Below, piece by piece: positions 4,963-44,807 of a stretch of 51,425 nucleotides of DNA. This DNA is from a virus. Each line of letters starts with the position of its first letter. Position 1 is the first letter of the stretch. The notes under the pieces were generated by a model. It was not told the origin of the DNA and did no database searches. It saw only the letters and a list, made by a program, of their open reading frames with translations. The translations under genes were made by a program, and so were the position numbers. Location: positions 1 through 51,425 of the IMG/VR virus record IMGVR_UViG_3300032222_000148; one strand, 5' to 3'.

Positions 4963-4971
4963 AACTATATT

Positions 4972-5688: not shown

Positions 5689-5689
5689 A

Positions 5690-6298: not shown

Positions 6299-6299
6299 A

Positions 6300-9071: not shown

Positions 9072-9072
9072 T

Positions 9073-9696: not shown

Positions 9697-9703
9697 TGTA
9701 TTT

Positions 9704-10936: not shown

Positions 10937-10937
10937 A

Positions 10938-13473: not shown

Positions 13474-13481
13474 AAACTTTA

Positions 13482-14027
13482 TTATTCATTTAAATTTTCC
13501 CTTCTTTCCGCTTGCTTCTTAGATGTACTTGCTCCAGGCATTAATTTATCTGATATATATTCCCTGTCAATTGTAACCAATTCCACACTCTTTATAGAAG
13601 TCATTTTATATTCTCTGTAATTGTCTTTATAAATTAGAGGTTTTCGTTTTAAAATATCGAATAAAGGTGCTCCATCTGGAGGAAACTTTCTCAATAGAAA
13701 TTTAAATTCTTCTAAGTTATACGCATCAATTATTTTATCTTCCGTTACAGGTTGACTGATAGCAGGTTTCAATGCATCGAAAAATAATTCAGGATTAACA
13801 TGCTTTAATTTTATTACAGCAAATCTAACTTGCTTATCTACAAATCTACCAATTAGAAATATGTAAGTTGTATCTAACCCTGTTAATGTTCTAGTCCTTC
13901 CATCTTCTGCATATTTATACACCACTATTTTGTAAAAATTACCAGGCTTCATCATACCATGCGCCATCGGCTTAAATCCGGTAATAATGTTATCCCACTG
14001 TGATGTAAAAATTCTACTCGTTGCCAT
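13482..14027 (-). CDS. Hypothetical protein within glycan island
   Basis: A 181-residue protein with a beta-rich first half (FYKIVVYKYAEDG...TYIFLIGRF...FAVIKLKHV) and a lysine- and arginine-rich C-terminus (STSKKQAERRENLNE). No glycosyltransferase or methyltransferase signature, signal peptide or membrane segment. It looks more like a small structural or nucleic-acid-binding phage protein than a sugar enzyme, which suggests that the glycan genes were inserted around an older phage gene. Its start shares a TAATG-type region with the stop of the upstream... the downstream glycosyltransferase junction is at 14027. Function unknown. Confidence 0.75.
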   Translation of the reverse strand: MATSRIFTSQWDNIITGFKPMAHGMMKPGNFYKIVVYKYAEDGRTRTLTGLDTTYIFLIGRFVDKQVRFAVIKLKHVNPELFFDALKPAISQPVTEDKIIDAYNLEEFKFLLRKFPPDGAPLFDILKRKPLIYKDNYREYKMTSIKSVELVTIDREYISDKLMPGASTSKKQAERRENLNE

Positions 14028-15262: not shown

Positions 15263-15266
15263 AACT

Positions 15267-15692
15267 TTATTTTCCTGTTGAACCGAATCCGCCTTCGCCT
15301 CTTTCGGTGTTAGATAATTCGTTTACTTCGTTAAATTCAATTGGTGGATGTGGGATGATGGTAATCTGACAAACTCTATCACCCACTTCATATTTTGAGG
15401 ATACAACTCCTTTATGTTTTCTAAATGTAGCCTGCAATTCACCTCTATATCCACTATCAATTACGCCTACACAATTAGTTAAACTTAAATCTGTTTTTCT
15501 AATCGATGAACGAGGAAATACTAATCCTACAAATCCTTCAGGTATTTCTAATGCAATACCTAAACCGTATGTAATTTGAAATACTTCTTCGCTTATAATT
15601 GATGTTGCAACTAAATCCATCCCGGCATCTCCATTTTTTGCATAAGATGGGATTACCGCTTCAGGATGTATTCTTTTAATGTTTACTATCAT
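15267..15692 (-). CDS. dut: dUTP diphosphatase (dUTPase)
   Basis: A 141-residue trimeric-type dUTPase with all five motifs: AGMDLVA (motif I), PRSSIRKT (motif II), GVIDSGYRGEL (motif III with the catalytic Asp and uracil-binding hairpin), GDRVCQITIIP (motif IV) and the C-terminal RGEGGFGSTGK (motif V, P-loop-like arm). It hydrolyses dUTP to dUMP and diphosphate, preventing uracil incorporation and feeding dTMP synthesis. It is full length. It lies between glycosyltransferase genes and overlaps the zinc-binding protein gene upstream by 17 bases. Confidence 0.96.
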   Translation of the reverse strand: MIVNIKRIHPEAVIPSYAKNGDAGMDLVATSIISEEVFQITYGLGIALEIPEGFVGLVFPRSSIRKTDLSLTNCVGVIDSGYRGELQATFRKHKGVVSSKYEVGDRVCQITIIPHPPIEFNEVNELSNTERGEGGFGSTGK

Positions 15693-15945
15693 AATATTTT
15701 TTTCTTACCTTTGCACCCAACTCATCATTGTTAGGTGTATCTAAAATTGTTCTTTCATCTATTGTTATTAGGTTTCTATCGGATGCCATATAACACATTC
15801 TGCATAATTGCCCAGCTCCTTCAATGTATCCAATTCTGAAATCTATATGAGTTGTTTTAAGTGTATCAGTTTCTATTCCACATTGAATACACGTTTCAAA
15901 CATATCAAATTCATCTTTTGGAAATAATTCTAATTGCTTCCCCAT
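15676..15945 (-). CDS. Small zinc-binding protein (two CxxC motifs)
   Basis: An 89-residue protein with ETCIQCG near residue 18 and QLCRMCYM near residue 48, a spacing consistent with one four-cysteine zinc site holding a small beta-hairpin domain (THIDFRIGYIEGAGQLCRM between). The C-terminus is basic. Such small zinc proteins in phages often bind nucleic acid or host proteins, but nothing specific is recognised. It overlaps dUTPase by 17 bases, so the two are co-translated. Confidence 0.8.
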   Translation of the reverse strand: MGKQLELFPKDEFDMFETCIQCGIETDTLKTTHIDFRIGYIEGAGQLCRMCYMASDRNLITIDERTILDTPNNDELGAKVRKKYYDSKH

Positions 15946-15946
15946 A

Positions 15947-17350
15947 TTAGTCTTTTATTTTAAATAAATCGTATTTTTTTCTAGGTTTCCATTTTTCAAA
16001 TGCACCTTCCATACCTTCTATTAATGTATCACACATTCTTTGTGCGTGGTATCCATTAGGCCCTTTGAAGAATTCATGTCCAATTAAACCTCTTTTCTTT
16101 CTTTCTTCTTTAGGAATATCATACCAATATCTCATAGCATCTGCTAAATCTTGAATATCAATCTTATCATCGATAATATATGGTGTAGGAACTGAGCCTG
16201 TCATTGTCTGTGCCTTTGCCCATACTGGTTTAACCCATTCTCCATATGTTACCTTATCTTGCGAATCTCTCCAATTATGTAGTGAACCAATTTTTACATA
16301 ATCTTCTGCAGTTACCAATTCTCCACTATCTTTCCAACGGAATCCACATTGGTCTTGTAATCCACCGGTTGTTAACACAATAATCGGTGTACCCGCCATT
16401 ACAGCTTCCGCAGTTCCTAACCCAAACCCTTCATTACCACATATATTAATTGATACATCTGATACATTTAAAACTTGATTAAGTTGTTCTGTATTTAGTT
16501 TACCTGTTGAAAATTTAATATTGCAATCAGGTGCTAATCTTTGGATAACCGCAGGTAAATCTGTTCCATTTTCATCTACCGGCTGAGTATGCATTAATAA
16601 TAATACTTTATCTTTTTGCTCAGGTGTCAATGTATCACAGAAAACTTTATACGCCCAAATTACATCAGATGGTTGCTTTCTACGAATGTTTCTGTTTGAC
16701 CAATGGAATACAAAATCATATTCTTTTCCTTCAAATAATTGAGTAGCGAAAACTTTATCAATTTGTGATTCTTCTAATGGTTTATATAAATTGGATACAC
16801 CATGTGGTACATATGATACTTGCCAGTCTTCTCTAGGAACCCAGGTTTTATTATTTTCTAATTTACCAACTCTTTTAGTGATGCCATAAGTTTGTTTTGA
16901 AATACATCCAATCCAATCACAACTTTCATAGTAATCTCTATTGTAATGAGGGTCTGGTAAATCATCCCAAATATGGTAAAAGAATATTGGTGTAGTTTGC
17001 CTGATTTCATGTTCGATGTCATACAACCAAATCCAATATCTAGGGTCTGTGAAGTGTAAGATAGCATCAGGATTGTGCTTTTCTATTAGTTGTTTAACAA
17101 TATTGTAATCTCCATACCCACTATATGGATAAATAGTTACATTACCTTCCGTTAAACCCGCAACTCTTCTCGCATCTTCCGATACATCAACTATTTTTCC
17201 TTGCTCAGGATGGTTAATCGCTGCACCAACTTGAATCCAATCGTATTTGTGTAAACTACCTAATACTAATTCTTTTGACATTGTGGCTATCCCACTATGC
17301 ATTCTTAAATCATCTGATAAAAGTAAGATTGTCTTTCTTTTGTTCGCCAT
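15947..17350 (-). CDS. Glycosyltransferase, GT-B fold (family 4-like)
   Basis: A 467-residue enzyme, the largest transferase in the island. The N-terminal domain opens with KTILLLSDDLRMHSGIATMS, giving the flexible G-rich loop; FHWSNRNIRRKQPSDVIWAY near residue 215 is the start of the donor domain; and SINICGNEGFGLGTAEAVMAGTPIIVLTTGG near residue 305 is the E-x7-E donor-binding motif. It is the first gene of the glycan island in the direction of transcription, 20 bases after the ribbon-helix-helix gene. Sugar donor and acceptor are unknown. Confidence 0.88.
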   Translation of the reverse strand: MANKRKTILLLSDDLRMHSGIATMSKELVLGSLHKYDWIQVGAAINHPEQGKIVDVSEDARRVAGLTEGNVTIYPYSGYGDYNIVKQLIEKHNPDAILHFTDPRYWIWLYDIEHEIRQTTPIFFYHIWDDLPDPHYNRDYYESCDWIGCISKQTYGITKRVGKLENNKTWVPREDWQVSYVPHGVSNLYKPLEESQIDKVFATQLFEGKEYDFVFHWSNRNIRRKQPSDVIWAYKVFCDTLTPEQKDKVLLLMHTQPVDENGTDLPAVIQRLAPDCNIKFSTGKLNTEQLNQVLNVSDVSINICGNEGFGLGTAEAVMAGTPIIVLTTGGLQDQCGFRWKDSGELVTAEDYVKIGSLHNWRDSQDKVTYGEWVKPVWAKAQTMTGSVPTPYIIDDKIDIQDLADAMRYWYDIPKEERKKRGLIGHEFFKGPNGYHAQRMCDTLIEGMEGAFEKWKPRKKYDLFKIKD

Positions 17351-18966: not shown

Positions 18967-19538
18967 TAGCCTTTGATATAAGTGTTATAAAATTTTTGTT
19001 TAAATTGTTCATACCCAATTCTACAATTTTCCAACCAGTCTTCTGTTCCGCCATCATCACTTACCCATTTATAAGAAGTGATAGGTATCTTAAACTCTCT
19101 GCAAACTCTAGTGATTGAGTATAATTCCATCTCAAAGATACTACAATTATTTAATAATTCCAACTTTTGAGGAGGGAAAGATTTAATTTTATCTTTTGTT
19201 ATAAATGTTTCAGTTGTAAAGCATTTAACTCCCATATCCATTACGGGAAACGAACCACCATCTTCTTCAAATGGAGTAACAGAGTATCTTACAAATGGTT
19301 CTGCATCCATATCACCATTGAATACTTCTTTGACTGTTACTAACGTTCCCTTATCTAATTGGAATGAACCACAACTTCCAAAATTACATACAAATTTAGG
19401 TTTATATTGTTGGATAGCCAATGCGGTTTTATATCCTGCATTTATCTTACCAACTCCAGTATGAATTATCGGTGAACCAAACAGAGTAGTTTCTCCATTT
19501 GATTCATCCGGCAATGCACATATGAATAATACTTCCAT
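18966..19538 (-). CDS. MTA/SAH nucleosidase-like (PNP/UDP phosphorylase family) protein
   Basis: A 190-residue protein that keeps the functional positions of MTA/SAH nucleosidases: Glu in ALPDE near residue 12, TGVGKINAG, FGSCGSF, GDMDAEPF, the ribose-binding FEMELYSITRVC, and the catalytic Asp in KWVSDDGG. It is shorter than bacterial enzymes (about 230 residues). The family cleaves adenine from methylthioadenosine, S-adenosylhomocysteine or related nucleosides. In a phage with several SAM-dependent methyltransferases it could remove the inhibitory product S-adenosylhomocysteine; it might instead act on a signalling or defence nucleotide. TAATG-coupled to the gp62-like gene. Confidence 0.75.
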   Translation of the reverse strand: MEVLFICALPDESNGETTLFGSPIIHTGVGKINAGYKTALAIQQYKPKFVCNFGSCGSFQLDKGTLVTVKEVFNGDMDAEPFVRYSVTPFEEDGGSFPVMDMGVKCFTTETFITKDKIKSFPPQKLELLNNCSIFEMELYSITRVCREFKIPITSYKWVSDDGGTEDWLENCRIGYEQFKQKFYNTYIKG

Positions 19539-26010: not shown

Positions 26011-28551
26011 TTAAAATGAGAAAAACTTATCGGATTTGGTGATTTTTAGTTGTAAATGCCCCCATCCTAAAGCCTTATAAAAATCCTCCAATTTGTTCTG
26101 CATTTCATGCTCAAAAATCTTATCATAATCGATGTAATTTTTGATGAAAGATTCTATCTCCTCAGGGTCATTTGCTCCCTTAAATCCTATAGTATCCAAT
26201 CCTAATGGGTTTTGTTTAAGATATACCCATTTCATTTTATCACCATTTCTCATAGGTGAATATTTGAATCCACAATTAAAGTGTTTTAGTAATTGATTGT
26301 AAGTCCATGCTGCTTTAACGTGCGCCGGAGTTCCTTTTGCGAATTGGAACATAGCTCCTTTGGTTGGTGTGTATTTAGATAATTCTTTAACCGAACTACT
26401 CTTAGCAATATCATAGAATCCAATTAGTGGTAATGATGATTTAAATGTCATAATCTTCTCATCCATTACTTCTTTCGGCTCACTTCGTAGAATATCAATC
26501 AAAGTTTGTTTCATAAATACTTTGAATGCTCCAGGAAATGATGAACGAACTACATCCAATCCTTTTACTTGAAGAGTATCACATTTGATGCCATTCTCCG
26601 CAATAATCCATTGAGCGTATCGTTTCTTAGCAATCCAAATTCCAGACCTACTTACAAATTCTTTTTTAATCTGTAATCTATGTTTATCCTTTGGTACATT
26701 TAATATTCTTTCAGAGAATACATCGTAGAAATTATTTAAATAATCTTGTGTTTCTCCTGCAATACCATCTACTTTTAGTGCAACTTCATCATCAGGCATT
26801 TCTCTCCAATTAGGATGTCGTTTTTCTAATAAAGGAACTGCTGAAAAGAATACAGAATCAGTATCGATGTAGATGTTATAATCCCCATCCGTTGTTCCCA
26901 ATTCTTTATTGTATTTGATATTAGCCATATCAGCAGTAGATTTAATTACTCTCTGACCAGTTAACGTTACCGCTTCAGCATTATCCACATCATAGAAACG
27001 GAATGATGGTAATCCTAATACCCCATATAATGAGTTAAGTAAAATCTTTTGTACTAATTGCCTTTTCTTATAGAATGCATATTTCTCAGCATCTCCTTCT
27101 TCACCATACTTTTTTTCTAACTTACGATATTCAACACGCTTACTAAACCACTCATCTAAGATTGCAGGAATACATCCTATTTTATCTTGTCTATAAATTA
27201 CACCATTCGATGCTATTGAATTTCCACTACTCTTTAAGAAATCTTCAAATTTATCTCTCTGTATTTGTTTTCCGTTTATTACATAGAACTCATCTTCTTT
27301 TTTAAGGTATCGTTGAACATCCCAATCTTGCACTTTCGCCATCTTTGTTTCAGGTGAAATATTGAGTGTCATAATGATTGATGGGTATAGAGAAGTTAAG
27401 TCCAAGTCATATATCCAATCGTATTTTCCTACAATAGGGTCTTTTACATATGCACCAATAAATTTCTGGTCTTTTGCACCTTCGTTAATTCCACCCTGCT
27501 CTCTCATCGAATCTAACATTCTATCCGAATCTTCTTTTCTCATTTTGTTTGGTGCTACTAATCCTCTTTGTTTTAGGAAGCAAAGTAATGCACCTTCTAA
27601 TGAACGGGATGTAAAAAATACATCTTCGTATGCAACGTGTCCGGCGTGAGCAATACCTCTACATAGGTCAATGAATTGTAGCTTCTTATCCATATCTACA
27701 ATCAATCGAACGTCTTCTAAGTTATACTCAATAAACTTTTCTATGTCATCTCTGAATAAATCATCCAAATTACCTGCATACTCTACCTTACCTCTGCCTA
27801 ATTCAATTTTAGCAACGGTATCCAATCGATAGTTATCTAATTCAGTATAGTTGTATTCTTTATATAGAACCAAATAATCTAATGCCGATACTCCACCAAT
27901 GAACCACTTCTTTCTATATGGTGAAAAGAATACTTCTCTAATAGGAGATAATCTTCTCGCTTGCTTTTCTCCCAATACATTTTTTAAACGATTGTAGAGA
28001 TATGGAACGTCAAAGAAATCGATATTCCATCCGGTAATAATTGTTGGATTAATGTGTTCGTATATGGAAAGAAACTTAGATAGCATCTCTCCTTCTGATT
28101 TGAACGGAACTACAATTCGGTTTTCCGTTTTTGATGAAGTCATTGTTCCCTTTTTATCGAGAACTAATACATAATAAAAATCTTCAACCGAATCATGTGC
28201 TGCAATAGAAGTTATTTCATTCTGTGCCTTTTCCGTATCGGGAAGACCGGTAATCATTTCTACCTCGATGTCAAAGGTACATATTCTATGCCCTTCTGAT
28301 GGTAAATCTGAATTTGTATATAAATCTACCAACACTCTCGTTACTTCAGGAACATCCGATTCGAATAAACCTTCATCTTCCTTTGTGTATTTGTAAATCT
28401 TTGTTAACCTATCACCATAGATACTCTCCCATTCTCCGTTTTGTGCGGGTTTGAAAGCGTATCTTTGGTAAGGTATAGTGAAATATCCTTTAACATCATC
28501 CCAAATGTGGACGGTATTAGTATTTCGTTGGTAGTATATATTTTGATACAT
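26011..28551 (-). CDS. DNA polymerase, family B (gp43-like)
   Basis: An 846-residue replicative polymerase with both activities. Proofreading: Exo I FDIEVE (residues 93-98), Exo II WNIDFFD (175-181) and Exo III YNLEDVRL (276-283). Polymerase: motif A DLDLTSLYPSI (382-392), motif B KILLNSLYGVLG (502-513) and motif C YIDTDSV (561-567). The C-terminus ends SDKFFSF, resembling the hydrophobic clamp-binding tail of T4 gp43. It is full length for the family (T4 gp43 is 898 residues). It has its own promoter at 28572-28603 and lies directly upstream of the clamp gene. Confidence 0.97.
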   Translation of the reverse strand: MYQNIYYQRNTNTVHIWDDVKGYFTIPYQRYAFKPAQNGEWESIYGDRLTKIYKYTKEDEGLFESDVPEVTRVLVDLYTNSDLPSEGHRICTFDIEVEMITGLPDTEKAQNEITSIAAHDSVEDFYYVLVLDKKGTMTSSKTENRIVVPFKSEGEMLSKFLSIYEHINPTIITGWNIDFFDVPYLYNRLKNVLGEKQARRLSPIREVFFSPYRKKWFIGGVSALDYLVLYKEYNYTELDNYRLDTVAKIELGRGKVEYAGNLDDLFRDDIEKFIEYNLEDVRLIVDMDKKLQFIDLCRGIAHAGHVAYEDVFFTSRSLEGALLCFLKQRGLVAPNKMRKEDSDRMLDSMREQGGINEGAKDQKFIGAYVKDPIVGKYDWIYDLDLTSLYPSIIMTLNISPETKMAKVQDWDVQRYLKKEDEFYVINGKQIQRDKFEDFLKSSGNSIASNGVIYRQDKIGCIPAILDEWFSKRVEYRKLEKKYGEEGDAEKYAFYKKRQLVQKILLNSLYGVLGLPSFRFYDVDNAEAVTLTGQRVIKSTADMANIKYNKELGTTDGDYNIYIDTDSVFFSAVPLLEKRHPNWREMPDDEVALKVDGIAGETQDYLNNFYDVFSERILNVPKDKHRLQIKKEFVSRSGIWIAKKRYAQWIIAENGIKCDTLQVKGLDVVRSSFPGAFKVFMKQTLIDILRSEPKEVMDEKIMTFKSSLPLIGFYDIAKSSSVKELSKYTPTKGAMFQFAKGTPAHVKAAWTYNQLLKHFNCGFKYSPMRNGDKMKWVYLKQNPLGLDTIGFKGANDPEEIESFIKNYIDYDKIFEHEMQNKLEDFYKALGWGHLQLKITKSDKFFSF

Positions 28552-32099: not shown

Positions 32100-33461
32100 T
32101 TAACCCATATTATCTACATACTTTTTATGTAGTAGTTGTTTTTGTAATAATTCTCCGTTTTTACTTTCTTTACTAGCTATAATTCCATTTGATGAATTGG
32201 CTGCATATACTTCAATGATGCCTTTGTTAGTATTCATCTTTGAAGGGAAAGTTAATCCATCCTGTCCAAATCTGTTTTTCATAACGTGGAATCGAGCAGT
32301 ATCATTCAACTTATCAGTATCTTTTCTACTAACTGATATGATTAAATCTGCGTTCATTACCTTTGCATAACTATCCGCAATTTTATCAGCGTGAATTACA
32401 TCACTTTCAATCGCACTTCTATTAGTTTGGGATGCTGTCCAAATTGGTATTTGATACTCACCTCCCATTGCTCTTAAATCAATATAGATACCACCTTGTT
32501 CCTGATAATCCGAATTGTTTTTAGAGTTAACTGAAACTAATAAATCAGCGTAGTCTATAATTATCAAATCTGGCTGAAATTTGGTTGAACGAACCATATC
32601 AACGTGTGCCGCAATTGTATTTGCAGTAATACCCTTTGGTGGATAATATTTAATCATCAATCCACCTTTTAGTTTATCTACCTTTTCTCTAATTTGGTCT
32701 TTGTTCTCTTTTAAATCAGATGATGGGATACCGGTGAAGATTGTATCATATCTTTGCCCAACGTAGTTCTGTGTAAGTTCTAATGTGTAGTGTAATACAT
32801 TCTTTCCCTGTCTAACTGCTTCTGCACCGATGTGGCAGAGAACCCAAGTCTTACCAACACCCGATGGTGCAACAATAACTCCTAATTCTCCAGGCCCTAA
32901 ACCTCCATCTGTTAAATCATCTATAACATCCCAATTCGTTTTAACAGTTCTTCTGTTAACCTCTTCGAAACGAACTTCTATATCTTCTTTGTAATCTAAT
33001 CCTAAATCATTTGCTTGTCCAACTTTAACTGCATCTCTTACTAATTTTTCAATCTTATCAAATTGACCGGTATGTAATAGGTCAACTGATGTAAGAATAA
33101 CATTTTTAAAGTTTTGATTTTTACAGAATGTTACAAACTCATTCTTAACCCACTCAGAATCTCCTCCACTTTGTTGAGCATAAACTGCTTTTAACTGAGA
33201 TAAAACATTTTGTTGTAATGCCTTATCTGTAATCTTTTGTATTTCAGTTTTAAAGAAATCCGTAGTAGGAGTGTTCTTATATTTGCTAAAGTATTTACGA
33301 GTCAGTTCAACAATCCATTTGTTAGTATCCGATTCAAAATACTTTGTTTCCAAAATATCCGAAACCTGCTCTAAAAAAGGTCTGTCTGTTACTAAATTTG
33401 TTACCACTTTAGTTTGATAACTCTGCCCGTATTTTGATAAATTATCTACCGCTTCACTCAT
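32100..33461 (-). CDS. Replicative DNA helicase, DnaB/gp41-like
   Basis: A 453-residue RecA-fold helicase. The N-terminal 150 residues are helical, as in DnaB/gp41. The ATPase core has Walker A GVIVAPSGVGKT near residue 192, Walker B with LIIIDYADLL near residue 297, and the H4-like loop with TASQTNRSAIE near residue 340. It unwinds DNA ahead of the polymerase as a hexamer and would work with a primase that is not visible in this window. It has its own promoter at 33466-33497, only four bases from the ATG, suggesting a leaderless or very short 5' end. Confidence 0.93.
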   Translation of the reverse strand: MSEAVDNLSKYGQSYQTKVVTNLVTDRPFLEQVSDILETKYFESDTNKWIVELTRKYFSKYKNTPTTDFFKTEIQKITDKALQQNVLSQLKAVYAQQSGGDSEWVKNEFVTFCKNQNFKNVILTSVDLLHTGQFDKIEKLVRDAVKVGQANDLGLDYKEDIEVRFEEVNRRTVKTNWDVIDDLTDGGLGPGELGVIVAPSGVGKTWVLCHIGAEAVRQGKNVLHYTLELTQNYVGQRYDTIFTGIPSSDLKENKDQIREKVDKLKGGLMIKYYPPKGITANTIAAHVDMVRSTKFQPDLIIIDYADLLVSVNSKNNSDYQEQGGIYIDLRAMGGEYQIPIWTASQTNRSAIESDVIHADKIADSYAKVMNADLIISVSRKDTDKLNDTARFHVMKNRFGQDGLTFPSKMNTNKGIIEVYAANSSNGIIASKESKNGELLQKQLLHKKYVDNMG

Positions 33462-33465
33462 GCAA

Positions 33466-33497
33466 CAAATATAAGATTAAAATTTGGTATTTCCAAA
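33466..33497 (-). promoter_or_regulatory. Bacteroidota-type promoter (P3) of the helicase gene
   Basis: Minus strand: TTTG at 33494-33497 followed by GAAA, a spacer of 20 bases, then TATATTTG at 33466-33473; both elements fit the consensus fully. Four bases separate the -7 element from the ATG at 33461, so transcription would start at or next to the start codon. It lies within the 39-base gap after the exonuclease gene. Confidence 0.8.
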
Positions 33498-33500
33498 TTA

Positions 33501-34538
33501 TTATAAAACTAAATTACCAAATGATGACCTTAACCAGTCATTTACATCTCCCCAATTTTGTAGGATTTTATATTTCATACCAAACCCAATGAACTTCATT
33601 TTATCCAATGGTTCAATCGATTCATTAAATCTATCGTTTATTTTAAGTTTGGTAATCCCGCTAATATCCGGGTCTTCCAATTGCATTATCTGGAAGTTTC
33701 TTTCAATGATTTTTTTACTATCTAAAATAGTTTGAAAAACTTTGTATTCTCCTTTTTGTTCCTCTGCTAATCTCATCAGTTCATCCACTGTCAATCTAGC
33801 ATCAGTTTCTAATACAGGTAATCTTTTAAGAAGTGTTTTTAAACCACATCCTTTTACACCATCTATGTTATCGGATTTATCACCATCCATTACTCTATAC
33901 CATATAAAGTTTTCAGCGTGAACTCCGTATAATTCTTTTAATTTATTCTTATCAATTTTTTGTTTCTTTAATGGATTCCAAACGTGGATATTATCAGAAA
34001 CTAATTGTAAGAAATCTTTATCAGATGAAAGAATTAATGCTCCTTCATCTTCTTTGATAACTTGTTTAGCTAAATAACCGATTACATCATCTGCTTCAAT
34101 GTTATCATATATCATTGTAGTTATCGGCAATACTCCTAATATATTAGCCAATGAACTCAATTGCCTTCTCAAACTTACTTGCTCATCTTCTTCACTCATC
34201 ATATCATCATATTGACGATTGACTCTGAATTTAACTTTTCTATCCGCTTTGTAATTTGAGAATACTTCTTTTCTTTTTTGTGAACCTCCCTTACCATCAA
34301 ATATTACTACTACTCTAGTAGGGTTCTCCTGGCGTATAACTGCTCCCAATGATTTTAGGAATCCAACCATGCCACCTGTATGTTCTCCATCTTCGTTCAT
34401 TGTAGGATTTGTACTCCAACAACGGAAGAACATATTTAGTCCATCCACAAATAACACCTTAGAATTTCTAGTTCTAAGGTGTTTAGTGGTATGTTCCAAA
34501 TTTACTTCATCTAATAAATTCTTGTATTTGTTATTCAC
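33501..34538 (-). CDS. 5'-3' exonuclease/flap endonuclease (T4 RNase H-like)
   Basis: A 345-residue FEN-family nuclease. Metal ligands lie in VLFVDGLNMFFR (near residue 30), VVVIFDGKGGSQKRKE (near 97), IEADDVIGYLA (near 168), SSDKDFLQLV (near 190) and DGDKSDNIDGVKGCGLKT (near 238), the last including the helix-hairpin-helix. It removes RNA primers and flaps on the lagging strand. It starts with GTG at 34538 in a TAGTG junction with the stop codon of the recombinase gene, which explains the rare start. No polymerase domain is attached. Confidence 0.94.
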   Translation of the reverse strand: MNNKYKNLLDEVNLEHTTKHLRTRNSKVLFVDGLNMFFRCWSTNPTMNEDGEHTGGMVGFLKSLGAVIRQENPTRVVVIFDGKGGSQKRKEVFSNYKADRKVKFRVNRQYDDMMSEEDEQVSLRRQLSSLANILGVLPITTMIYDNIEADDVIGYLAKQVIKEDEGALILSSDKDFLQLVSDNIHVWNPLKKQKIDKNKLKELYGVHAENFIWYRVMDGDKSDNIDGVKGCGLKTLLKRLPVLETDARLTVDELMRLAEEQKGEYKVFQTILDSKKIIERNFQIMQLEDPDISGITKLKINDRFNESIEPLDKMKFIGFGMKYKILQNWGDVNDWLRSSFGNLVL

Positions 34539-35656
34539 TATTCTACTTCGTTTGGTAAATTTGTATCAACTTCCATTGCTTCAATATCGTATGTATCCTT
34601 TTTATATTGAAGAATAGTCGTCTCACAAATCTTTTTATAAATTTGGTCTCTTAACTCAGGTTTTTGTTGCATCATTATAATGAAATCCTTTGATTGGAAT
34701 TTAACAACTTCACCGGTATCAGTATCTACATACTCATACCAAGCTCCACCCTGTTTAACTAACTTATTATCTTTCAATACAGTTAGCCAGCTACCATAGT
34801 TATCGATACCTCTATCGAAATAGATTTCAAAATCTGCTGAACGAAGTGGTGGCCCTAATCGGTTCTTAACCACTTGTGCTCTTACTGAGATTCCTACTAC
34901 TTTATCCGTTCCGCCAATTTTAGTTTTGATTTGACCAACGTTCTTCAATCTTAAACGAACTGATGCGTGGAAAGCCAAAGCCTTACCACCACTCGTTGTC
35001 CAAGGGTCACCGAACATTACTCCTAACTTTTGTCTTAATTGGTTTGTGAAGATAACTGCAATTTTCTGTCTACCAATTACATTGGTAATCTTTCTCATTG
35101 CTTTGGATATGATAATAGCTTTATCGGTTGCATAACCGTCTTTATCATAATCCGATTCCATCTCTTTCTTAGTAGAAGCCGCCGCAACGGAATCCACAAC
35201 GATTGTTACTAACTTATCTTTTTCAGATGTTCTAACTTTCTCAATGATTGTTTCAATCGTTTCGAAAATATCCTCAACTGTATCTACACTCACATATAGA
35301 AGTTTGGATACATCTACTCCAATTGCATCAAAGAACTCTCTACTTACCGCAGTTTCAGTATCAATCAATACTGCAACTCCACCTTGTTTTTGAGTTTCCG
35401 CTAAGATGTGGGCAGAGAGTAATGATTTACCACTCTGCTCCAAACCTGTGATTTCAGTAATTCTACCGACAGGTATTCCACCATACGGGCGATTAGAAAT
35501 AGCAACGTCCATCATAGCTGCTCCGGTTGAAATCCACCCATTTACATTGGTTGGTGCTCCATCGGAATCATCATCTAAGAAGAAAGCGATTTTTTGGTCT
35601 TTGTTTTTCTTGTTCAGACTATCGACCAGAATATCTGCTAAATCAGTTTTTGCCAT
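34538..35656 (-). CDS. Recombinase, UvsX/RecA-like
   Basis: A 372-residue RecA-fold ATPase. Walker A GLEQSGKS lies at residues 71-78, the catalytic Glu region in VLIDTETAVS near residue 99, Walker B TIVVDSVAA near residue 150, and the signature NQLRQKLGVMFGDPWTTSGGKALAFHASVRLRL near residue 205. The C-terminal 80 residues are acidic, as in UvsX. It forms filaments on single-stranded DNA for strand exchange and recombination-dependent replication. It lies 16 bases after the SSB gene and is probably on the same transcript as SSB, from the promoter at 36624-36655. Confidence 0.94.
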   Translation of the reverse strand: MAKTDLADILVDSLNKKNKDQKIAFFLDDDSDGAPTNVNGWISTGAAMMDVAISNRPYGGIPVGRITEITGLEQSGKSLLSAHILAETQKQGGVAVLIDTETAVSREFFDAIGVDVSKLLYVSVDTVEDIFETIETIIEKVRTSEKDKLVTIVVDSVAAASTKKEMESDYDKDGYATDKAIIISKAMRKITNVIGRQKIAVIFTNQLRQKLGVMFGDPWTTSGGKALAFHASVRLRLKNVGQIKTKIGGTDKVVGISVRAQVVKNRLGPPLRSADFEIYFDRGIDNYGSWLTVLKDNKLVKQGGAWYEYVDTDTGEVVKFQSKDFIIMMQQKPELRDQIYKKICETTILQYKKDTYDIEAMEVDTNLPNEVE

Positions 35657-35672
35657 AATTTATAACTTGTTA

Positions 35673-36548
35673 TTATTTGAATAAATCTTCGAATGCATCC
35701 GCAACTTGTTGAGTTGTTTTGGATACAGGAGTTGATGGTGTTTCATCCCAAGGCAACTCTTGTTGAGTAGCCGATTGTGGAATCTCATCATCTAATTGGT
35801 GAGGCTTTGTATCGAAATCAAATGAATCACTCACACTCTTTTCTGTTTTAGCCACAAGTGTTTCTTGTGTAGCAGATTGTGCTCCTTCATCAGTTGTGTT
35901 TCCAGCTAACCAATTTTCTAAGATTTTCTTCAACTCATCATATGACAATTCTGAGTAGATAGTGGTGATTTCTTTTTCGTTACCAATCAACTCACTAATC
36001 TTAGAATCATTCTCATGCAACTTAGTAGTTGTAGGTTTAACTCTGATAGTAGTAGTTGGGTAAGATGCTCCACCTTCCGCAGCTGCGTAATCTACAACGA
36101 TGTCTCTACCATTAATTGGGTCGGATAAATCGCCGTAATCTGGGTCAGCAAAGTAACCCAATAATTCTTGATAAACTGTTTTACCAAATCCCCAAAACTT
36201 AACACCTTCACTTTCCTGACCTCTTACGATTACGGGAACAAAAGTTCTCAATTTTGGCTCCATTTTCTTAGCTTCGCGGTAATCATCCTTTCCACCCATT
36301 CTCTTAAGTTTTTCTGCAAACTCTACGATAGGGTCAGGTCTTCCGAATGAAGCTGGTGATAAATAGGATTTGTTGTTGATGTTGTAGTGAAAATACAATT
36401 CAATAAAAGGAATATCCTTGTTGAATTTGTAAGGTACTAAACGGATTTGGTGTTTACCAACTGTTGGCTTCCATAGTGAGTCAGCCGTTTTCTGTGTGCC
36501 CTGAAGTTTGTTCAGACGGGCTCTGATTGCATCAATGTTTGTTGACAT
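35673..36548 (-). CDS. Single-stranded DNA-binding protein, gp32-like
   Basis: A 291-residue protein with the gp32 layout: a basic N-terminal segment for cooperative binding (IDAIRARLNKLQGTQ), a core with aromatic and basic strands (HQIRLVPYKFNKDIPFIELYFHYNINNKSYLSPASF) and a long acidic, disordered C-terminal tail (from about residue 215) ending DAFEDLFK. The four zinc ligands of T4 gp32 are absent, as in some other T4-like SSBs. It coats single-stranded DNA and recruits replication and recombination proteins. Its leader contains a hairpin at 36582-36620 that could serve autoregulation. Confidence 0.85.
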   Translation of the reverse strand: MSTNIDAIRARLNKLQGTQKTADSLWKPTVGKHQIRLVPYKFNKDIPFIELYFHYNINNKSYLSPASFGRPDPIVEFAEKLKRMGGKDDYREAKKMEPKLRTFVPVIVRGQESEGVKFWGFGKTVYQELLGYFADPDYGDLSDPINGRDIVVDYAAAEGGASYPTTTIRVKPTTTKLHENDSKISELIGNEKEITTIYSELSYDELKKILENWLAGNTTDEGAQSATQETLVAKTEKSVSDSFDFDTKPHQLDDEIPQSATQQELPWDETPSTPVSKTTQQVADAFEDLFK

Positions 36549-36623: not shown

Positions 36624-36655
36624 CAAAGATACACTATTATATCGAATATTCCAAG
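36624..36655 (-). promoter_or_regulatory. Bacteroidota-type promoter (P4) of the SSB gene
   Basis: Minus strand: CTTG at 36652-36655 followed by GAATA, 20 bases of spacer, then TATCTTTG at 36624-36631, a full match to TAnnTTTG. It lies in the 127-base gap 36549-36675, which also contains the SSB leader hairpin. It probably drives SSB, the UvsX-like recombinase and the exonuclease. Confidence 0.78.
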
Positions 36656-38016: not shown

Positions 38017-41000
38017 TTATTTTATCTTTGGTTTTTCTTTGTGAATCTCAGATGGGTTTCGATTTGTAGGTCTAACTACGGTACAGTCACCCTGTTTTGA
38101 ATAGTTAAATCCAACATCATCTTTAATTTTCATATAGCAAGGATTTTCTACACCATCCAAGTTTTCAGATTGGCAGCTTACAGCCTTACCTTTACTTATA
38201 CCGAATTTTTGGTTAGAATTCTTAAAATTAGTATAATCTAAATCGTTATTATAAAGAACTTCGGAAATTTTTTGATTCTTATAATACAATTTCATTGTTT
38301 CTTCAAATCTTACCTTTTCTTCATCGTTCATACAATCTAGAACTCCATTATCCTTAAATTTTTCTAATACTGATGCAACTCTTCTCTCTGCCCAATCTTC
38401 GGCAGCTTTTACTTCTTCTTCGGTAGCGATTCCATTCTCTACCATCCATTTTTTATCATCTTCTAAAGCCGCCTTTTGTTCATTAACCTGCTCATCTGAT
38501 GGAGGAAAATCAGGAGGGGTTTGTTTTTCTGAATAAAATAAATCGTATGCTGATAACATTCTATTTCCCCTTCTTCTCGTCTCATTATTTTTGAACCTAC
38601 TCTGTCTCCATTTTTCATCACTTGTTCCAGCTGCACCTCCTTGCATTTTTACACTAATTCCACCAGAGAATTCTAATGATACCATAAGAAATTCTATATC
38701 AGTTTCATTTTCACTAATTTGATTTACAACCAATACATCAGCGGTTTTAAACGCTTCATCAGCTGGTAAATAAACTGAATTACCTTTTGATAGTAATTCC
38801 ATTGCAACTTTTATTTCTGCAAAATCAGCAATACCATCTCTGAAATCTTTACTATTAAACATATTGATTTGGAGCTCATCTAAAAGTTTTTGATATTCTT
38901 TTTGTTTTTCAGGATTTGATTCCACGTCATCTCCATCAAAATCTCTAAGTTTTTCAAAGGTTTCCATTACCTTTTGATTTTCAGGTAAATCCTTTTTATC
39001 TCCTAATAATTGTGTAAATTTATCAATCGATTTATCCAATATTTTTTTCCTAGCTTCATTTCTTCCTTCAGGTGTCGTAGTATCTCCAATATCAACTGTT
39101 TTAAATTTTCCACCTGTTTTTTTAGAAATTTCTGCTAATTCATCAATACTATCATTTTTACTTTTAATTTTGTTTACAAATAATGAAGCTTTTTCCTCTA
39201 ATTCTTCATCACTAAGGTTAGGATTACTTTGTTTAAGTTTTACCTTTGCTTGTTCAATTGTAGGAACTGATAATTTCTTATGAGTTTTTCCATTGAATAC
39301 AACTGTATTTTCATCAATTATTCCAATTTCAATTTCTTTTTCTTCTCCTATAATTTTAGCAGGCGTTGGGTCTTTTTTACCCACTGCTCCTTGTCCGGAT
39401 TTTCCAGTTGTTACCCCATATTTTTTACTCGCTCCATCCGCCCATTCTCTACTAGCTTTACCTGCTCCTAATTCTAGAACTTTAATATAGCCTTGTTGAG
39501 ACCAATCACCTTTCTTTTTCGAGGCAATATAAATTTTAACTTTTTTATCATTTACTATTTTAATATAATCCTTTGCAATGACCTGTTCTTCATCTGTTAA
39601 ATCTTCTCCTCCCGTTATCTTACCAACAATAGTAGATATTTGCTCTTTAAGATTATCATCTAAAATAGAATCTTTGTATTTAGGTTGATTCATTTGTTTA
39701 GCTGCTACATCTTTGTAATTTTTACCCGTTAATGGAGTTACATTAGTATCACTTTGAGCAGAATCTTCTCCCTCTTTATTAGAATCCAATTCATCGGCTT
39801 TTTCGGTTGCCTCCGGTTGGTCTTTAACATCAATCGGTGTTACTCTAGCGGTATCACCATTTGGTAATTTTTTTGTTACACTCTCTTCAAATAATAAACT
39901 TAAAAACTTGTCGTTTTCATTTTCAAATACTTCTCTAACTACACTTTCTGTTTTTACATATTGTGCAGGTCCATCAGGAGTATCTGAGTAATAATTTCCA
40001 CCTACTGGATATATTGCTCCACCTTCTTTTTTATTTGGTTCTTTTGGTGCAGGTAGTTCACCATCTTTAACATCCGCTTTTTTAGCTGCAATCCCCATAT
40101 CTTCAGCAAACTTATTCGCCATTGGAATCGCATCTTTAATATCCATATCGATTACCGTTGATTTCATCGGTATTGGATTATCTGGATTTTTAGCATTATG
40201 TGCTACAATTGCAGCCCATCTATGATGTCCATCAATTACATATCCATCTCTACTCACATATATTGGTGCAGTAATTTTTGGATGATTAGGGTCTTTCTCT
40301 AATGCTCCCATCATACCAATTACTTTACCACCAACTAAATCTTTTTGTGTTGCTTTTAATTTATCAGCAGGTACTTCTGTTTGTAATACTTTGATGTTCT
40401 TCTCTTTCAACATCTCTCTGAATACCGGCTCTGTATCTACTTCACCATCTTTATCCGTTTCCATTCCGGCTGCTCTACTACCTTCCACTGCCTTTCCTTT
40501 GAATTGAGGCATTTCTTCTCTAGGTATTCCCTTATTATCATCACAATATAAGTTAGTTCCAGGAATAGTAATATCACATAAGTTGATGTCAGGTACAGGT
40601 TCTCCTTTAGCCTTTGCATCATCTAACATTTTACTAATCTTACTTATATCAGTATTGAATTGGTTTAAATCGTTTGGAGAAATTCCATCTAATGCTTTAC
40701 CATCTTTACTGAATGTTTCTTTATCAGCTTCCGGCATTTCTTCCGCTACTTTTTGAGGCTCTACTTGCTTAGTTTCAGTTTTTCTATCTGAGCCACCTTT
40801 CATCATTTTATCAACCAATTCAACGTGGCTTTCACCTGCAATTACAATTGGTATCTTACCCTTTGCTACTAATTCTTTTCTCTTTTCTATAATATTCTCA
40901 TCCCTTATATCATTAAACGCAACTTGAATATCATTTATTTTTGTTTCCTTATCTCCATTATCTTCTGGAAATGCTAATCTGAATAATGTTCCTCTATCAC

Positions 41001-43092
41001 CACTTCCTTCTGGATTATTTTCATCAGGCACTTCACCGGTCGGATTCTCCCAATTTTCTATTGGAGGTAACCCAGCTTCTTTAGCTGCATCTTGTAAGAA
41101 TTGCTTACCATCCTCATCTAAGAAATCATTTGGTGACATTGTATCCGTACCTTCACCTTGCCCAATCATACTAGCCCAATTACCAGCTTTAACTTGTGAA
41201 TCGTTAAGGCCAGTTTTTTCTTTTTGCTTTTGGTATAATTTAGATTGGTCATCATGTACATCTAATTCATCACCATCCCATGTATCAATACCCGCACCTA
41301 ATTGTTTAAATTTAGGAGCCGCATATTCCATCTCATCGTTAAATTCCAATTCATCATTATCACCTGTTGCACCACCCTCTCCTAAAAATACAATATTCTC
41401 CCATTCCTCTTGTGGAATAGTTGCTTTTATTTGGTCCATTATATCATCGACCATTTTAGTATTTCCGTGAACAGTTCCAAACATCATTCCACCATCTTCA
41501 AATTCTATTGTTTGAATATCTTTGCCAGATTTCTTACCTTTAAATTTTTGTACTTTTGAATCGGTATCTTCGTTAGCAGGTTCTAATCTAGTAGGTTCTC
41601 CAATTGTACCTTGTCCAGAATCTTCTTTTTTATTCTTATCGATAGTTTGCTGAGATTTAAATGCTCTGGCTTTAGCTTTATTCTGTGCACTTGCTTTAGG
41701 GTCATCTAAAACTAAATCAGGATTATCTTTTGGTAAAGTTTTTTCCGCTTCCTTTTCTTTAGTATCCAATGCTTTAGTTGCAGTATCAATCATAGATGCG
41801 GTATCAGGCTTATCACTATCAGAAGGTTCTCCCTCATCAGCTCCACCATCTCCTTTACCTAATTCTGCCTTTTCCTTATCAGTTAAAGGTCTTAAACTAC
41901 CTTTATCATTTTTAAGCTCAGCTTCTCCTCCAGCTACACTAGAGTAATACCCACCTCCTAAGTGAAACTTACCTGGAAATTCTTTCGATTCACCCTTATC
42001 ATCTTCTTCATTTAATATTCGGTTAAATAATTCATTTAAATCAATTACTTCCGATTGTGGTTCGTTTAATTTTTTCTTTTCGTTATATGAATCTACCATA
42101 GACATCATTAATTCATCAGGTATTTCCATATTCTCCATATTATCAGCAAAAGAGTCCATAAAATCACCTAATACTCTTTCATCTTCCCCATCTGCACCCG
42201 CAAATAGAGATGCCTTACCAACTCCTACAGCAATTGTTTCAACTACAACGTGTGGGACTAATTCCATTGCAACGTGTTTTGCAAATGCAACTGCACCATG
42301 TGCTAATCCACCAAATACTCCTGCAGTCAATGCGGTTGTTGCAACTTTAATACCAACTGTTATTAACGCTTTCTTTTCTTCTTTATCTAAACTCGTAAAT
42401 CCTCCAGGCTCACTAAATACTTTTCCAGCAGCTTTGGCAGCAGTTTTAAATATATGTGCTTCATGCTTTAAACCATGTACAATAGCATTTCTAGCTCCCT
42501 TTGCTTTATCTTTTAATGCCTGCCCAAAACTTCTACGAGTTTCTGAACCTGGTTTATCCTGACCTTTATTAAAAAATTCTTTTTCCTTTTCACTCCATTT
42601 TTCCACTTTACTTTTTAGTACATCCGCCTTCGATTTAACTACGGATGCTGCTTTCATTGGTGCAGGAGCTTCAGCAGGAGTATCTTTTGGTTGCTCAGCA
42701 GGAGGTGTTTCAGATGAAGGTTCTTTTGGTTTAGGAGCAGTTGGTTTTTCCGCAGTAGGTGTTTTACCACCCTTTGAATCAAACTTTGCTTTTTCTTCTG
42801 GAGTTACGGGTCTTAGATTACCCTTATCATTTTTAAATTCAGCATCACCTCCATCGTTAGACGAGTAGTATCCACCACCTAAATGGAATTTACCTGGAAA
42901 CAAACCAGATTCTTTTTCACCTTCTGCTTCTGAAAGCAATTCGTATAGTTTAGGTTTTATATACCCATATCCTAATTCATCACATATTTCCATCAACGCA
43001 ATTACCTGCTCTCTATCTTTCATATTAGGGAATGGATAGGTTACAGATAATTCTAAAAGTAGCTCATCTATGATTTTATTAATATCAGCCAT
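38017..43092 (-). CDS. Giant multidomain virion-associated-type protein (1691 residues)
   Basis: Residues 1-60 are a helical start domain. Residues 62-103 and 368-411 are two copies of a module with FPGKFHLGGGYYSS and KNDKG-x-LRP; a weaker third copy is at 1024-1046. Residues 190-330 are helical and hydrophobic (GLKHEAH, then a stretch without charge to about 300). Residues 530-760 have FGTVHGN, FLGEGG and IVIAGESHVELV, spaced like TraB/ChaN/EreA-type domains. Residues 905-985 are ParB-like, with YVIDGHHRWAAI at 951-962. Residues 1418-1490 resemble a PD-(D/E)XK nuclease (FAEIKVAMELL, TADVLVV, ISVKMQGG). Pro/Glu-rich linkers join the parts. A packaged or injected polyprotein is inferred; no function is proven. 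Confidence 0.8.
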   Translation of the reverse strand: MADINKIIDELLLELSVTYPFPNMKDREQVIALMEICDELGYGYIKPKLYELLSEAEGEKESGLFPGKFHLGGGYYSSNDGGDAEFKNDKGNLRPVTPEEKAKFDSKGGKTPTAEKPTAPKPKEPSSETPPAEQPKDTPAEAPAPMKAASVVKSKADVLKSKVEKWSEKEKEFFNKGQDKPGSETRRSFGQALKDKAKGARNAIVHGLKHEAHIFKTAAKAAGKVFSEPGGFTSLDKEEKKALITVGIKVATTALTAGVFGGLAHGAVAFAKHVAMELVPHVVVETIAVGVGKASLFAGADGEDERVLGDFMDSFADNMENMEIPDELMMSMVDSYNEKKKLNEPQSEVIDLNELFNRILNEEDDKGESKEFPGKFHLGGGYYSSVAGGEAELKNDKGSLRPLTDKEKAELGKGDGGADEGEPSDSDKPDTASMIDTATKALDTKEKEAEKTLPKDNPDLVLDDPKASAQNKAKARAFKSQQTIDKNKKEDSGQGTIGEPTRLEPANEDTDSKVQKFKGKKSGKDIQTIEFEDGGMMFGTVHGNTKMVDDIMDQIKATIPQEEWENIVFLGEGGATGDNDELEFNDEMEYAAPKFKQLGAGIDTWDGDELDVHDDQSKLYQKQKEKTGLNDSQVKAGNWASMIGQGEGTDTMSPNDFLDEDGKQFLQDAAKEAGLPPIENWENPTGEVPDENNPEGSGDRGTLFRLAFPEDNGDKETKINDIQVAFNDIRDENIIEKRKELVAKGKIPIVIAGESHVELVDKMMKGGSDRKTETKQVEPQKVAEEMPEADKETFSKDGKALDGISPNDLNQFNTDISKISKMLDDAKAKGEPVPDINLCDITIPGTNLYCDDNKGIPREEMPQFKGKAVEGSRAAGMETDKDGEVDTEPVFREMLKEKNIKVLQTEVPADKLKATQKDLVGGKVIGMMGALEKDPNHPKITAPIYVSRDGYVIDGHHRWAAIVAHNAKNPDNPIPMKSTVIDMDIKDAIPMANKFAEDMGIAAKKADVKDGELPAPKEPNKKEGGAIYPVGGNYYSDTPDGPAQYVKTESVVREVFENENDKFLSLLFEESVTKKLPNGDTARVTPIDVKDQPEATEKADELDSNKEGEDSAQSDTNVTPLTGKNYKDVAAKQMNQPKYKDSILDDNLKEQISTIVGKITGGEDLTDEEQVIAKDYIKIVNDKKVKIYIASKKKGDWSQQGYIKVLELGAGKASREWADGASKKYGVTTGKSGQGAVGKKDPTPAKIIGEEKEIEIGIIDENTVVFNGKTHKKLSVPTIEQAKVKLKQSNPNLSDEELEEKASLFVNKIKSKNDSIDELAEISKKTGGKFKTVDIGDTTTPEGRNEARKKILDKSIDKFTQLLGDKKDLPENQKVMETFEKLRDFDGDDVESNPEKQKEYQKLLDELQINMFNSKDFRDGIADFAEIKVAMELLSKGNSVYLPADEAFKTADVLVVNQISENETDIEFLMVSLEFSGGISVKMQGGAAGTSDEKWRQSRFKNNETRRRGNRMLSAYDLFYSEKQTPPDFPPSDEQVNEQKAALEDDKKWMVENGIATEEEVKAAEDWAERRVASVLEKFKDNGVLDCMNDEEKVRFEETMKLYYKNQKISEVLYNNDLDYTNFKNSNQKFGISKGKAVSCQSENLDGVENPCYMKIKDDVGFNYSKQGDCTVVRPTNRNPSEIHKEKPKIK
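39955..40023 (-). repeat. Degenerate third copy of the GGGYYSS module
   Basis: Encodes residues 1024-1046 of the giant protein, AIYPVGGNYYSDTPDGPAQ, which lines up with HLGGGYYSSNDGGDAE of the first copy but has lost the FPGK start and the KNDKG end. As with the other two copies, an acidic helix-forming segment lies next to it (SVVREVFENENDKFL). Confidence 0.4.
41860..41991 (-). repeat. Second copy of the GGGYYSS module
   Basis: Encodes residues 368-411 of the giant protein. Against the first copy it keeps FPGKFHLGGGYYSS, then GG-x-AE-x-KNDKG-x-LRP and EKA, with differences mostly at third codon positions and in the linker. It is preceded by a short acidic helix (LNELFNRILNEEDDKG), like the first copy (YELLSEAEGEKE). 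Confidence 0.85.
42784..42909 (-). repeat. First copy of the GGGYYSS module
   Basis: Encodes residues 62-103 of the giant protein, the best-conserved form: FPGKFHLGGGYYSS followed by AEFKNDKGNLRPVTPEEKA. The next copy lies about 900 bases downstream. The repeat is visible in both DNA and protein. Confidence 0.85.
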
Positions 43093-43096
43093 AAAA

Positions 43097-43492
43097 TTAA
43101 TTAAATTCTATTTTTTCAAAAATTCTAGTTGGAACTTTTCTAATTCCTTGTAAACCCGTCAATATAATACAATTTCTAAATTTATCCCAATCTAAAGAGA
43201 ATGAGGTATCTAATACTCCTCCATTTTCCTCTTTAATTAGTTGGTTCAAAGCATTGATTGTATATAGGGTATTTGATTGTTTCTTCCTGTGTACCAATAT
43301 GGTATTAGGTAATTGTTTATTAGGTCTAAATTCCACATCGATATTATATGTAATGTACAACTCATCTAAGTTTGTTTTATTCTGTAGGATATAAATGTAG
43401 TTATATACTATTTTATAATTTTCTCTAATTTGTTGTAATACATCCTGCAAAACTTCTTTATCCGTAAAGGTGCATAGTAACTGTGTTTTCAT
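43097..43492 (-). CDS. Hypothetical protein, 131 residues
   Basis: A 131-residue protein with a likely alpha/beta fold: LLCTFTDKEVLQDVLQQIRENY at the start, then alternating strands (YNYIYIL, LYITYNIDVEF, NTILVHRKK, CIILTGLQGIRKV). No catalytic motif, membrane segment or zinc site. It is separated from the family A polymerase-like gene upstream by 38 A/T-rich bases without a recognisable promoter, and from the giant gene downstream by four bases. It may share a transcript with the giant protein. Function unknown. Confidence 0.75.
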   Translation of the reverse strand: MKTQLLCTFTDKEVLQDVLQQIRENYKIVYNYIYILQNKTNLDELYITYNIDVEFRPNKQLPNTILVHRKKQSNTLYTINALNQLIKEENGGVLDTSFSLDWDKFRNCIILTGLQGIRKVPTRIFEKIEFN

Positions 43493-43530: not shown

Positions 43531-44769
43531 TTAAATATTTCCGTAACTATAATTTTTCTCCATCTTTGTAGGAGATATTCTATGTAAAACCTCCTCTATT
43601 TTGGGTAAAAGTTCAATTTCGTTAGTATCAACATCAAATAAAAAAGAATCATATGTGTAAAGAACCAATTTTGTTTTAGTATTTTCCAATAAAATGTTAA
43701 GTTGGTGTAACAATAAAACGTTCTGTTCGGTTTCCAATGCCTGTAAATAATAGTTAAATACCTTCTGAGCATTGTGGTTATCTATCTTAGTAAATGGTAT
43801 CCTTTTCCCAAATCTTGTCTCAACAAATCCATTAACTATAAATTGTTTGTATAGTTTGGTTATAAAATCATTTGTCTTCTGAAAGAATGGTATCTCTAAA
43901 TTATGAACATCTATCCCACCATACAATTGTTGGAATGTAATTTTTTTACTATTGAGATAATCTTCTTCGGTTAGTTCTTCTTTCCCAAAGTATTGCTTAC
44001 CCAACCATTCATGCGCAGAACCTTCCGGCATTGCTTCCCCTACTAATTTTGCAATCAATCGGATGTGATACCCATCAAAATCATATTGAACCAACTCACC
44101 ATTCTTACTAACAATGAAATCTCTACTACCATCTGATTTCTTAAGTGCTGAATAATTTACTCCTCCAAACGTATTCGAAGGTCTTCCTGTTGTGGTAAAA
44201 TTATTGTAAAGAGAATACTCATATCCATAAGTTGTAGGAATACCATTTGCTTCGATTCTAAGGAACGATGGTATTGTATAATCATTGTATCTATCAAAAC
44301 CATTTGCATCGATTCTTGCGTACTTAGCGTTCTCCACAACGAAGTCCACTACACCTTTAAGAATAGTTGCAATTGGAATAAATGAAATATCGGATTTATC
44401 TCTGTATCCGTTAGTAAACGATTGATAAATCATATCATACGCATAGGATTTAAACTCAGTTAAATGATATGAAACATCTACACTTTTCCAATTTGTAATT
44501 TTGGTTTTATGTAAGAACCATTTGGTATCAAAGATGTACTTAACCCTATCACTTCTCTCCAATATGGATAAACTTACCGGTACACAATCATTGTGGTCTT
44601 CCATTATCACCCAACAATGTTCTCCTATAAACACAAAAACACCCAATAGTTTATTTACTAATGGATGTTCTGTTCTATTTTTAAATAGTGGAAATATGAC
44701 AGAATCCTTCGATGTGTATTCATCGAAAAACATTTTAGCCGTATCTTTATTCTCTACATAGTAAACCAT
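43531..44769 (-). CDS. Divergent family A DNA polymerase-like protein (no active proofreading domain)
   Basis: A 412-residue protein from the ATG at 44769. Pol I-type landmarks occur in order: TTTGRPS (residues 192-198), DFIV (217-220), motif A YDFDGYHIRLIAKLVGE (229-245; Asp230, Arg237), SAHEWLGKQYFG (251-262), motif B KKITFQQLYGG (275-285; Lys275, Phe279, Tyr283), GFVETRFGKR (314-323), the Gln/Glu helix YLQALETEQN (341-350) and motif C YTYDSFLFDV (371-380; Asp374). Motif C lacks the usual His-Asp-Glu and the Glu of motif A is His. The N-terminal 110 residues look like a reduced exonuclease region. It has its own promoter. Whether it polymerises DNA is unknown. Confidence 0.75.
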   Translation of the reverse strand: MVYYVENKDTAKMFFDEYTSKDSVIFPLFKNRTEHPLVNKLLGVFVFIGEHCWVIMEDHNDCVPVSLSILERSDRVKYIFDTKWFLHKTKITNWKSVDVSYHLTEFKSYAYDMIYQSFTNGYRDKSDISFIPIATILKGVVDFVVENAKYARIDANGFDRYNDYTIPSFLRIEANGIPTTYGYEYSLYNNFTTTGRPSNTFGGVNYSALKKSDGSRDFIVSKNGELVQYDFDGYHIRLIAKLVGEAMPEGSAHEWLGKQYFGKEELTEEDYLNSKKITFQQLYGGIDVHNLEIPFFQKTNDFITKLYKQFIVNGFVETRFGKRIPFTKIDNHNAQKVFNYYLQALETEQNVLLLHQLNILLENTKTKLVLYTYDSFLFDVDTNEIELLPKIEEVLHRISPTKMEKNYSYGNI

Positions 44770-44775
44770 ATGGAA

Positions 44776-44807
44776 CAAATATACGAAAAAATATTAAGAA
44801 TTCCAAT
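44776..44807 (-). promoter_or_regulatory. Bacteroidota-type promoter (P7) of the family A polymerase-like gene
   Basis: Minus strand: ATTG at 44804-44807 followed by GAATT, 20 bases of spacer, then TATATTTG at 44776-44783, a full match to TAnnTTTG. Six bases separate the -7 element from the ATG at 44769, so the leader is extremely short. The -33 element lies within the end of the PhyH gene. Confidence 0.65.

Follow-up and report, generated by a model that had tools for sequence, protein, structure and literature searches.

The 412-residue protein encoded on the minus strand at positions 43531 to 44769 of the window (the whole stretch of viral DNA analysed here, 51,425 nucleotides) is a new member of an already published family of divergent family A polymerases, divPolA1. 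Its best reading, which we hold with somewhat more confidence than doubt, is an active polymerase that would not proofread, would have low processivity and would carry out short gap-filling. The open reading frame begins with an ATG at 44769 and its stop codon ends at 43531, and the plus strand of the same interval is full of stops. A preliminary description of this DNA, read from the letters alone, had given the coordinates and length correctly without stating the minus strand, and the residues that it listed (TTTGRPS at 192-198, Asp230, Arg237, Lys275, Phe279, Tyr283 and Asp374) are all present as it had them. It had overlooked a tyrosine, Tyr271, at the position of Arg754 in Klenow, the deletion of the thumb and the persistence of an exonuclease-like fold. 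With the family already in print, what our analysis newly adds is the uniformity of the active-site changes, the size of the family, its spread throughout a clade, members that have no exonuclease-like domain, the partner gene p131 and an argument against a primase role.

The product of the divPolA1 gene is a real relative of family A polymerases, both by profile and by fold. Alone, the protein matches the Pfam DNA_pol_A model (PF00476) with an E-value of 1.6e-6 and 27.7 bits, below the gathering score of 34.3 that gene 1 of the immuto phage exceeds with 42.7 bits. Its PHROGs match is phrog_17, DNA polymerase (E 1e-4), and phmmer with the single protein gave no match in the PDB, so that a family profile was needed: a profile of 62 divPolA1 sequences retrieved E. 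coli Klenow from the PDB at E 6e-9, and hhalign against five canonical PolA sequences gave an E-value of 1.2e-15 and a probability of 98.6%. The AlphaFold model has a mean pLDDT of 93.8 and its best PDB match with Foldseek is again Klenow (E 3e-19). VIA-align superposed the model (residues 1-412) on residues 300-875 of the Bst Pol I chain with a Z-score of 27.7 and an rmsd of 3.1 over 389 residues. A family A profile match and a predicted palm and fingers fold were thus both obtained, in accordance with the preliminary description, which had proposed a divergent stand-alone family A palm and fingers protein beside a full family B polymerase; the latter was recognised by PF00136. We also considered a kinship with single-subunit RNA polymerases and rejected it, since none is among the profile matches listed, which are DNA polymerases.

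The divPolA1 family was described by Yutin et al. (2024, Virol J 21:200, PMC11348598) in 14 phages including immuto. By their definition it is a divergent PolA, the second in its genome, whose palm catalytic residues are intact while the thumb is truncated and the exonuclease inactivated; its gene lies upstream of conserved replication genes, and the genome has a regular polymerase (family A, B or C) besides. In the modelled members all three catalytic aspartates of the exonuclease are replaced, and the authors concluded that divPolA1 most likely retains polymerase activity and participates in replication (PMC11348598). Among papers on family A phage polymerases that are thumbless or inactivated, only that one and its preprint use the name. 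Gene 1 of immuto_3-5A, an example of the family, aligns end to end with the window protein and is homologous over 89% of length with 30.8% identity (tblastn, residues 31-397, E 8e-43). The two share the palm residues, the truncated thumb, the exonuclease-like domain, the downstream replication genes and the presence of a second, regular polymerase, which is a PolB in this genome and a full PolA in immuto, and nothing excludes membership. By its published description, barbavirus divPolA2 is likewise a second PolA beside PolB with the thumb missing, but it has its own N-terminal domain and a variable gene neighbourhood (PMC11348598).

At the thumb site (residues 173-196; 44182 to 44253, minus strand) the IExxG motif and the Arg of TGRPS are separated by just 23 residues. 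This spacing is 23-41 residues in 85 relatives and 127 in Klenow, and the HMMER profile alignment skips from Klenow 553 to 650, that is, the thumb, so about 100 thumb residues are gone compared with Klenow, as in the published definition of the family. Residues 1-150 (44320 to 44769, minus strand) form an exonuclease-like domain of the DnaQ type, recognised by secondary structure and fold alignment and presumably inactive given its low conservation of Asp and Glu: acidic residues exceed 90% in just two columns of residues 1-156, 6 and 61, and the hhalign alignment stops short of the region. Where the preliminary description spoke of a proofreading domain "absent or degraded", the second word holds and the first does not, as the fold persists over residues ~1-150. 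The exonuclease activity has presumably been lost from this protein, and the polymerase would be unable to proofread. Five members of the family (L061, L068, L075, L093 and L102; 332-336 aa) are without most of residues 1-120, which leaves palm and fingers as the minimal unit.

To locate the active site we used the pairing by hhalign with Klenow, with which the protein shares the fold and motifs A, B and C at 13% identity. The pairs are D230 with D705, H235 with E710 and R237 with R712 in the region of motif A; Y271 with R754, K275 with K758, F279 with F762 and Y283 with Y766 in that of motif B; and Q343 with Q849, Y373 with H881, D374 with D882 and S375 with E883 in the remainder. Motif A, DFDGYHI (residues 230-236; 44062 to 44082, minus strand), keeps Asp705 and has His235 in place of Glu710; motif B on the O-helix (residues 271-284; 43918 to 43959, minus strand) keeps Lys758, Phe762 and Tyr766 and has Tyr in place of Arg754, a residue that in Klenow contacts the triphosphate; motif C, TYDSFLF (residues 372-378; 43636 to 43656, minus strand), keeps Asp882 and reads YDS for HDE. 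The changes in motifs A and C agree with those first read from the letters. In an alignment of 85 sequences, mostly 30-40% identical to the window protein and with 84 or 85 scored per column, the equivalents of R668, D705, K758, F762, Y766, Q849 and D882 are invariant, the metal-binding Asp being found in 85/85 for motif A and 84/84 for motif C. The replacements are uniform as well: the steric-gate position Glu710 is His in 85/85, that of Arg754 is Tyr in 80/85, that of H881 is Tyr in 84/84 and that of E883 is Ser in 71 and Ala in 13 of 84 sequences. Five canonical PolA sequences all have E710, R754 and H881, and vary at position 883 (E, E, S, Q, E). Motifs A and C were among the retrieval patterns, so we checked for bias on loci with one pattern only. 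All 40 loci with the motif A pattern alone keep the Asp of motif C, and all 8 with the motif C pattern alone keep the Asp and His of motif A, hence the invariance is not a product of retrieval. The published text on divPolA1 does not discuss these uniform changes and makes no mention of a steric gate, of histidine or of UvsX (PMC11348598).

Inactivity does not follow from the altered motifs, because the metal-binding aspartates are invariant and the E883 position is naturally occupied by Ser in an active phage enzyme, the PolA of Thermus phage Tt72 (PMC9324360). Tt72 PolA, which unlike divPolA1 possesses a thumb, active proofreading and the steric-gate Glu, retains 35% activity with Ala at the E710 equivalent, and only two Asp are critical, their Ala variants having 4% activity (PMC9324360). 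Judging from these residues divPolA1 is probably catalytic, with two-metal catalysis on Asp230 and Asp374 that would still transfer nucleotides, and the invariant His at the steric gate together with Tyr for Arg754 suggests an altered selection of sugar and triphosphate. Loss of the thumb would make for poor processivity. Two points speak against an active polymerase, namely the loss of Arg754 and the binding of a duplex without a thumb, which is unexplained; ASFV PolX is known to fill gaps without a thumb (PMC5330486). The family is in this sense a directly testable case of a Pol I-type enzyme that works, or has been repurposed, without a thumb and a standard steric gate.

A changed steric gate also raises the alternative that divPolA1 is a ribonucleotide-tolerant or RNA-making polymerase, which at forks or on recombination intermediates would make or extend primers of RNA or of mixed composition. 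The Asp-Ser of motif C resembles the HDS of single-subunit RNA polymerases, although the Ser is found in an ordinary phage DNA polymerase too. The Glu that is replaced by His throughout the alignment blocks ribonucleotides in family A (PMC9324360), and an RNA polymerase role was suggested for the distinct divPolA2 group (PMC11348598). His is itself bulky, though, and may still exclude the 2'-OH, Phe762 and Tyr766 are kept as is typical of DNA polymerases, and the profile matches listed include no RNA polymerase. Of the genomes searched, the four largest (immuto, Mel-JY01, LR756508 and the 173-kb contig G001) moreover encode a DnaG-like primase, which was found with the immuto protein as query, the Pfam zinc-ribbon model alone having missed most of these primases. 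We consider a ribonucleotide-tolerant or RNA-making enzyme unlikely. The same four primases led us to reject replacement of the primase as the main reading; they make a dedicated primase role unlikely and count against the priming role that the preliminary description had offered among its options. In the 51-kb fragment that forms the window the immuto query found no primase, in a search that had no positive control.

To see how widespread the gene is we searched several collections. A first search of IMG/VR gave 16 loci, several 94-96% identical and others 67-70%, and an alignment-based search raised this to at least 580 confirmed relatives, a lower bound, so that divPolA1 is common in public viral contigs compared with the 14 published genomes. 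Among about 85,000 prokaryotic genomes a single contig matched, which we take as phage DNA since it carries the same gene block. The close homologues in 50,697 annotated phage records belong to the Flavobacterium immuto phages, where they are annotated "DNA polymerase family A", to Microcystis phage Mel-JY01 and to an uncultured 484-kb phage; ten further matches are weak (E 1e-4 or worse) and include ordinary PolA. When gp41 was compared instead, the nearest annotated phages were the same divPolA1-bearing records (41-46% identity), followed by a drop to 33%. As far as sampled here, divPolA1 runs through the whole of one T4-like phage clade, and the family is derived from DNA polymerase I.

Values of dN/dS for divPolA1 against close relatives are 0.03-0.07 and the gene is under strong purifying selection. 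A pseudogene is ruled out by these values and by the absence of internal stops in the checked loci. Low dN/dS and invariant key residues together form the pattern of a working enzyme, and this bears on another alternative, a non-catalytic replisome or recombination factor that would use the Pol A fold as a scaffold for binding DNA or a partner. Its small size, the missing thumb and Arg754, the degraded exonuclease-like domain, the fixed gene neighbourhood and a co-occurring partner, p131, would all suit a scaffold. Without catalysis it is hard to explain why both metal ligands, as well as Lys758, Phe762, Tyr766, Arg668 and Gln849, are invariant, and the exonuclease-like part diverged, and was lost in some members, while the palm residues stayed. 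We regard such a factor as unlikely.

The gene neighbourhood is the basis for the gap-filling part of our favoured reading, the active polymerase. With tblastn of the window genes against all loci we found the order p952, gp53-like, p712, p141, divPolA1, p131, SSB, UvsX, FEN, gp41 on one strand, conserved in most loci with enough flank, a few genes being undetected in single loci. In the window the genes downstream, all on the minus strand, encode a gp32-like SSB (35673 to 36548; phrog_224 and synteny), a UvsX/RecA-like recombinase (34538 to 35656) and a gp41/DnaB-like replicative helicase (32100 to 33461), the latter two identified by profile matches and synteny, and between these two a 5'-3' exonuclease, FEN, as in the N-terminal domain of Pol I (33501 to 34538; PF02739, E 6e-36, and synteny). 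The presumed main replicase is a family B DNA polymerase with an exonuclease domain (26011 to 28551, minus strand; PF00136, E 8e-37). Both clamp-loader subunits are encoded in the window, and probably a clamp as well. Between PolB and the loader, which is the clamp position, lies a gene at 25236 that matched only an unnamed family. Most parts of the "complete T4-type replisome" of the preliminary description are thereby present, the phrase being slightly overstated in that the fragment has no match to the related phage's primase. We also considered that divPolA1 replaces gp59 or UvsY; Pfam searches for the two proteins gave no match, but neither did their controls. A regular second polymerase was detected in 20 of 28 divPolA1 records, PolB in 19 and a full-length PolA in immuto. 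In the 484-kb phage LR756508.1 (L020) the PolB signal extends over two ORFs, 260623-262308 and 266583-266900, which suggests a split PolB gene.

The fixed position of divPolA1 at the head of the gp32-UvsX-FEN-gp41 block supports gap-filling. With the FEN nuclease and SSB encoded nearby, divPolA1 would amount to a split Pol I that fills short gaps in Okazaki-fragment processing or in recombination repair dependent on UvsX, and copying of the genome would be left to the PolB (or PolA) replicase. That this is its main job is, on the evidence of the neighbouring genes, a tentative proposal, plausible but falling somewhat short of an even chance; T4, which does the same job with PolB, argues against it. 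The link to UvsX, the expected lack of proofreading and an active site open without a thumb could also point to a polymerase of the translesion or terminal-transferase type that counters DNA damage. We saw neither damage-related regulation nor a lesion-specific insert, and the gene is present throughout the clade and is not accessory, which makes a role of this kind very unlikely.

The gene immediately downstream, p131 (131 aa; 43097 to 43492, minus strand), is a partner of divPolA1 by co-occurrence and synteny, the annotated records with p131 being precisely the 6 in which a close divPolA1 homologue occurs. We confirmed 462 relatives in IMG/VR, near divPolA1 wherever checked, with an invariant H-R-K-K and several invariant Asn positions. 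The p131 protein of the window had no match in Pfam, PHROGs or NCBIfam. Its AlphaFold model has a pLDDT of 92.5, and fold searches gave weak matches only (best Z 6.3 over the first 67 residues; Foldseek E 0.29 or worse). One may speculate that the steric gate was rebuilt, with its invariant His and the Tyr at Arg754, for ribonucleotides or an unusual substrate while p131 supplies the thumb in trans, an idea that we rate as a long shot. Inserted between p131 and the SSB gene (38017-43092) is a gene for a 1691-aa protein with repeated FPGKFHLGGGYYSS segments, whose sole match is a phrog of unknown function over residues 836-1061.

The divPolA1 gene is preceded by a promoter-like element, TTGG-N19-TATATTTG (44776 to 44806, minus strand), of which the TATATTTG box starts 14 nt upstream of the ATG. 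The form TTGG-N19-TATNTTTG occurs 5 times in the window against 0.11 expected, always on the coding strand (44776-44806, 36624-36654, 33466-33496, 19133-19163 and 1162-1192, all minus): single copies lie immediately ahead of divPolA1 and in front of gp41 and the SSB gene. With the second box 12-14 nt from the ATG at gp41 and divPolA1, transcripts may be leaderless, and that of divPolA1 may be leaderless or nearly so. The element resembles Bacteroidota promoters and would be in keeping with a Flavobacterium-like host. Similar elements, judged by eye, precede many divPolA1 relatives; the strict TANNTTTG string is near the gene start in only 19 of 77. In the early part of the window, from 3811 to 17350, reading of the translations pointed to an extended series of ORFs that resemble glycosyltransferases, methyltransferases and epimerases.
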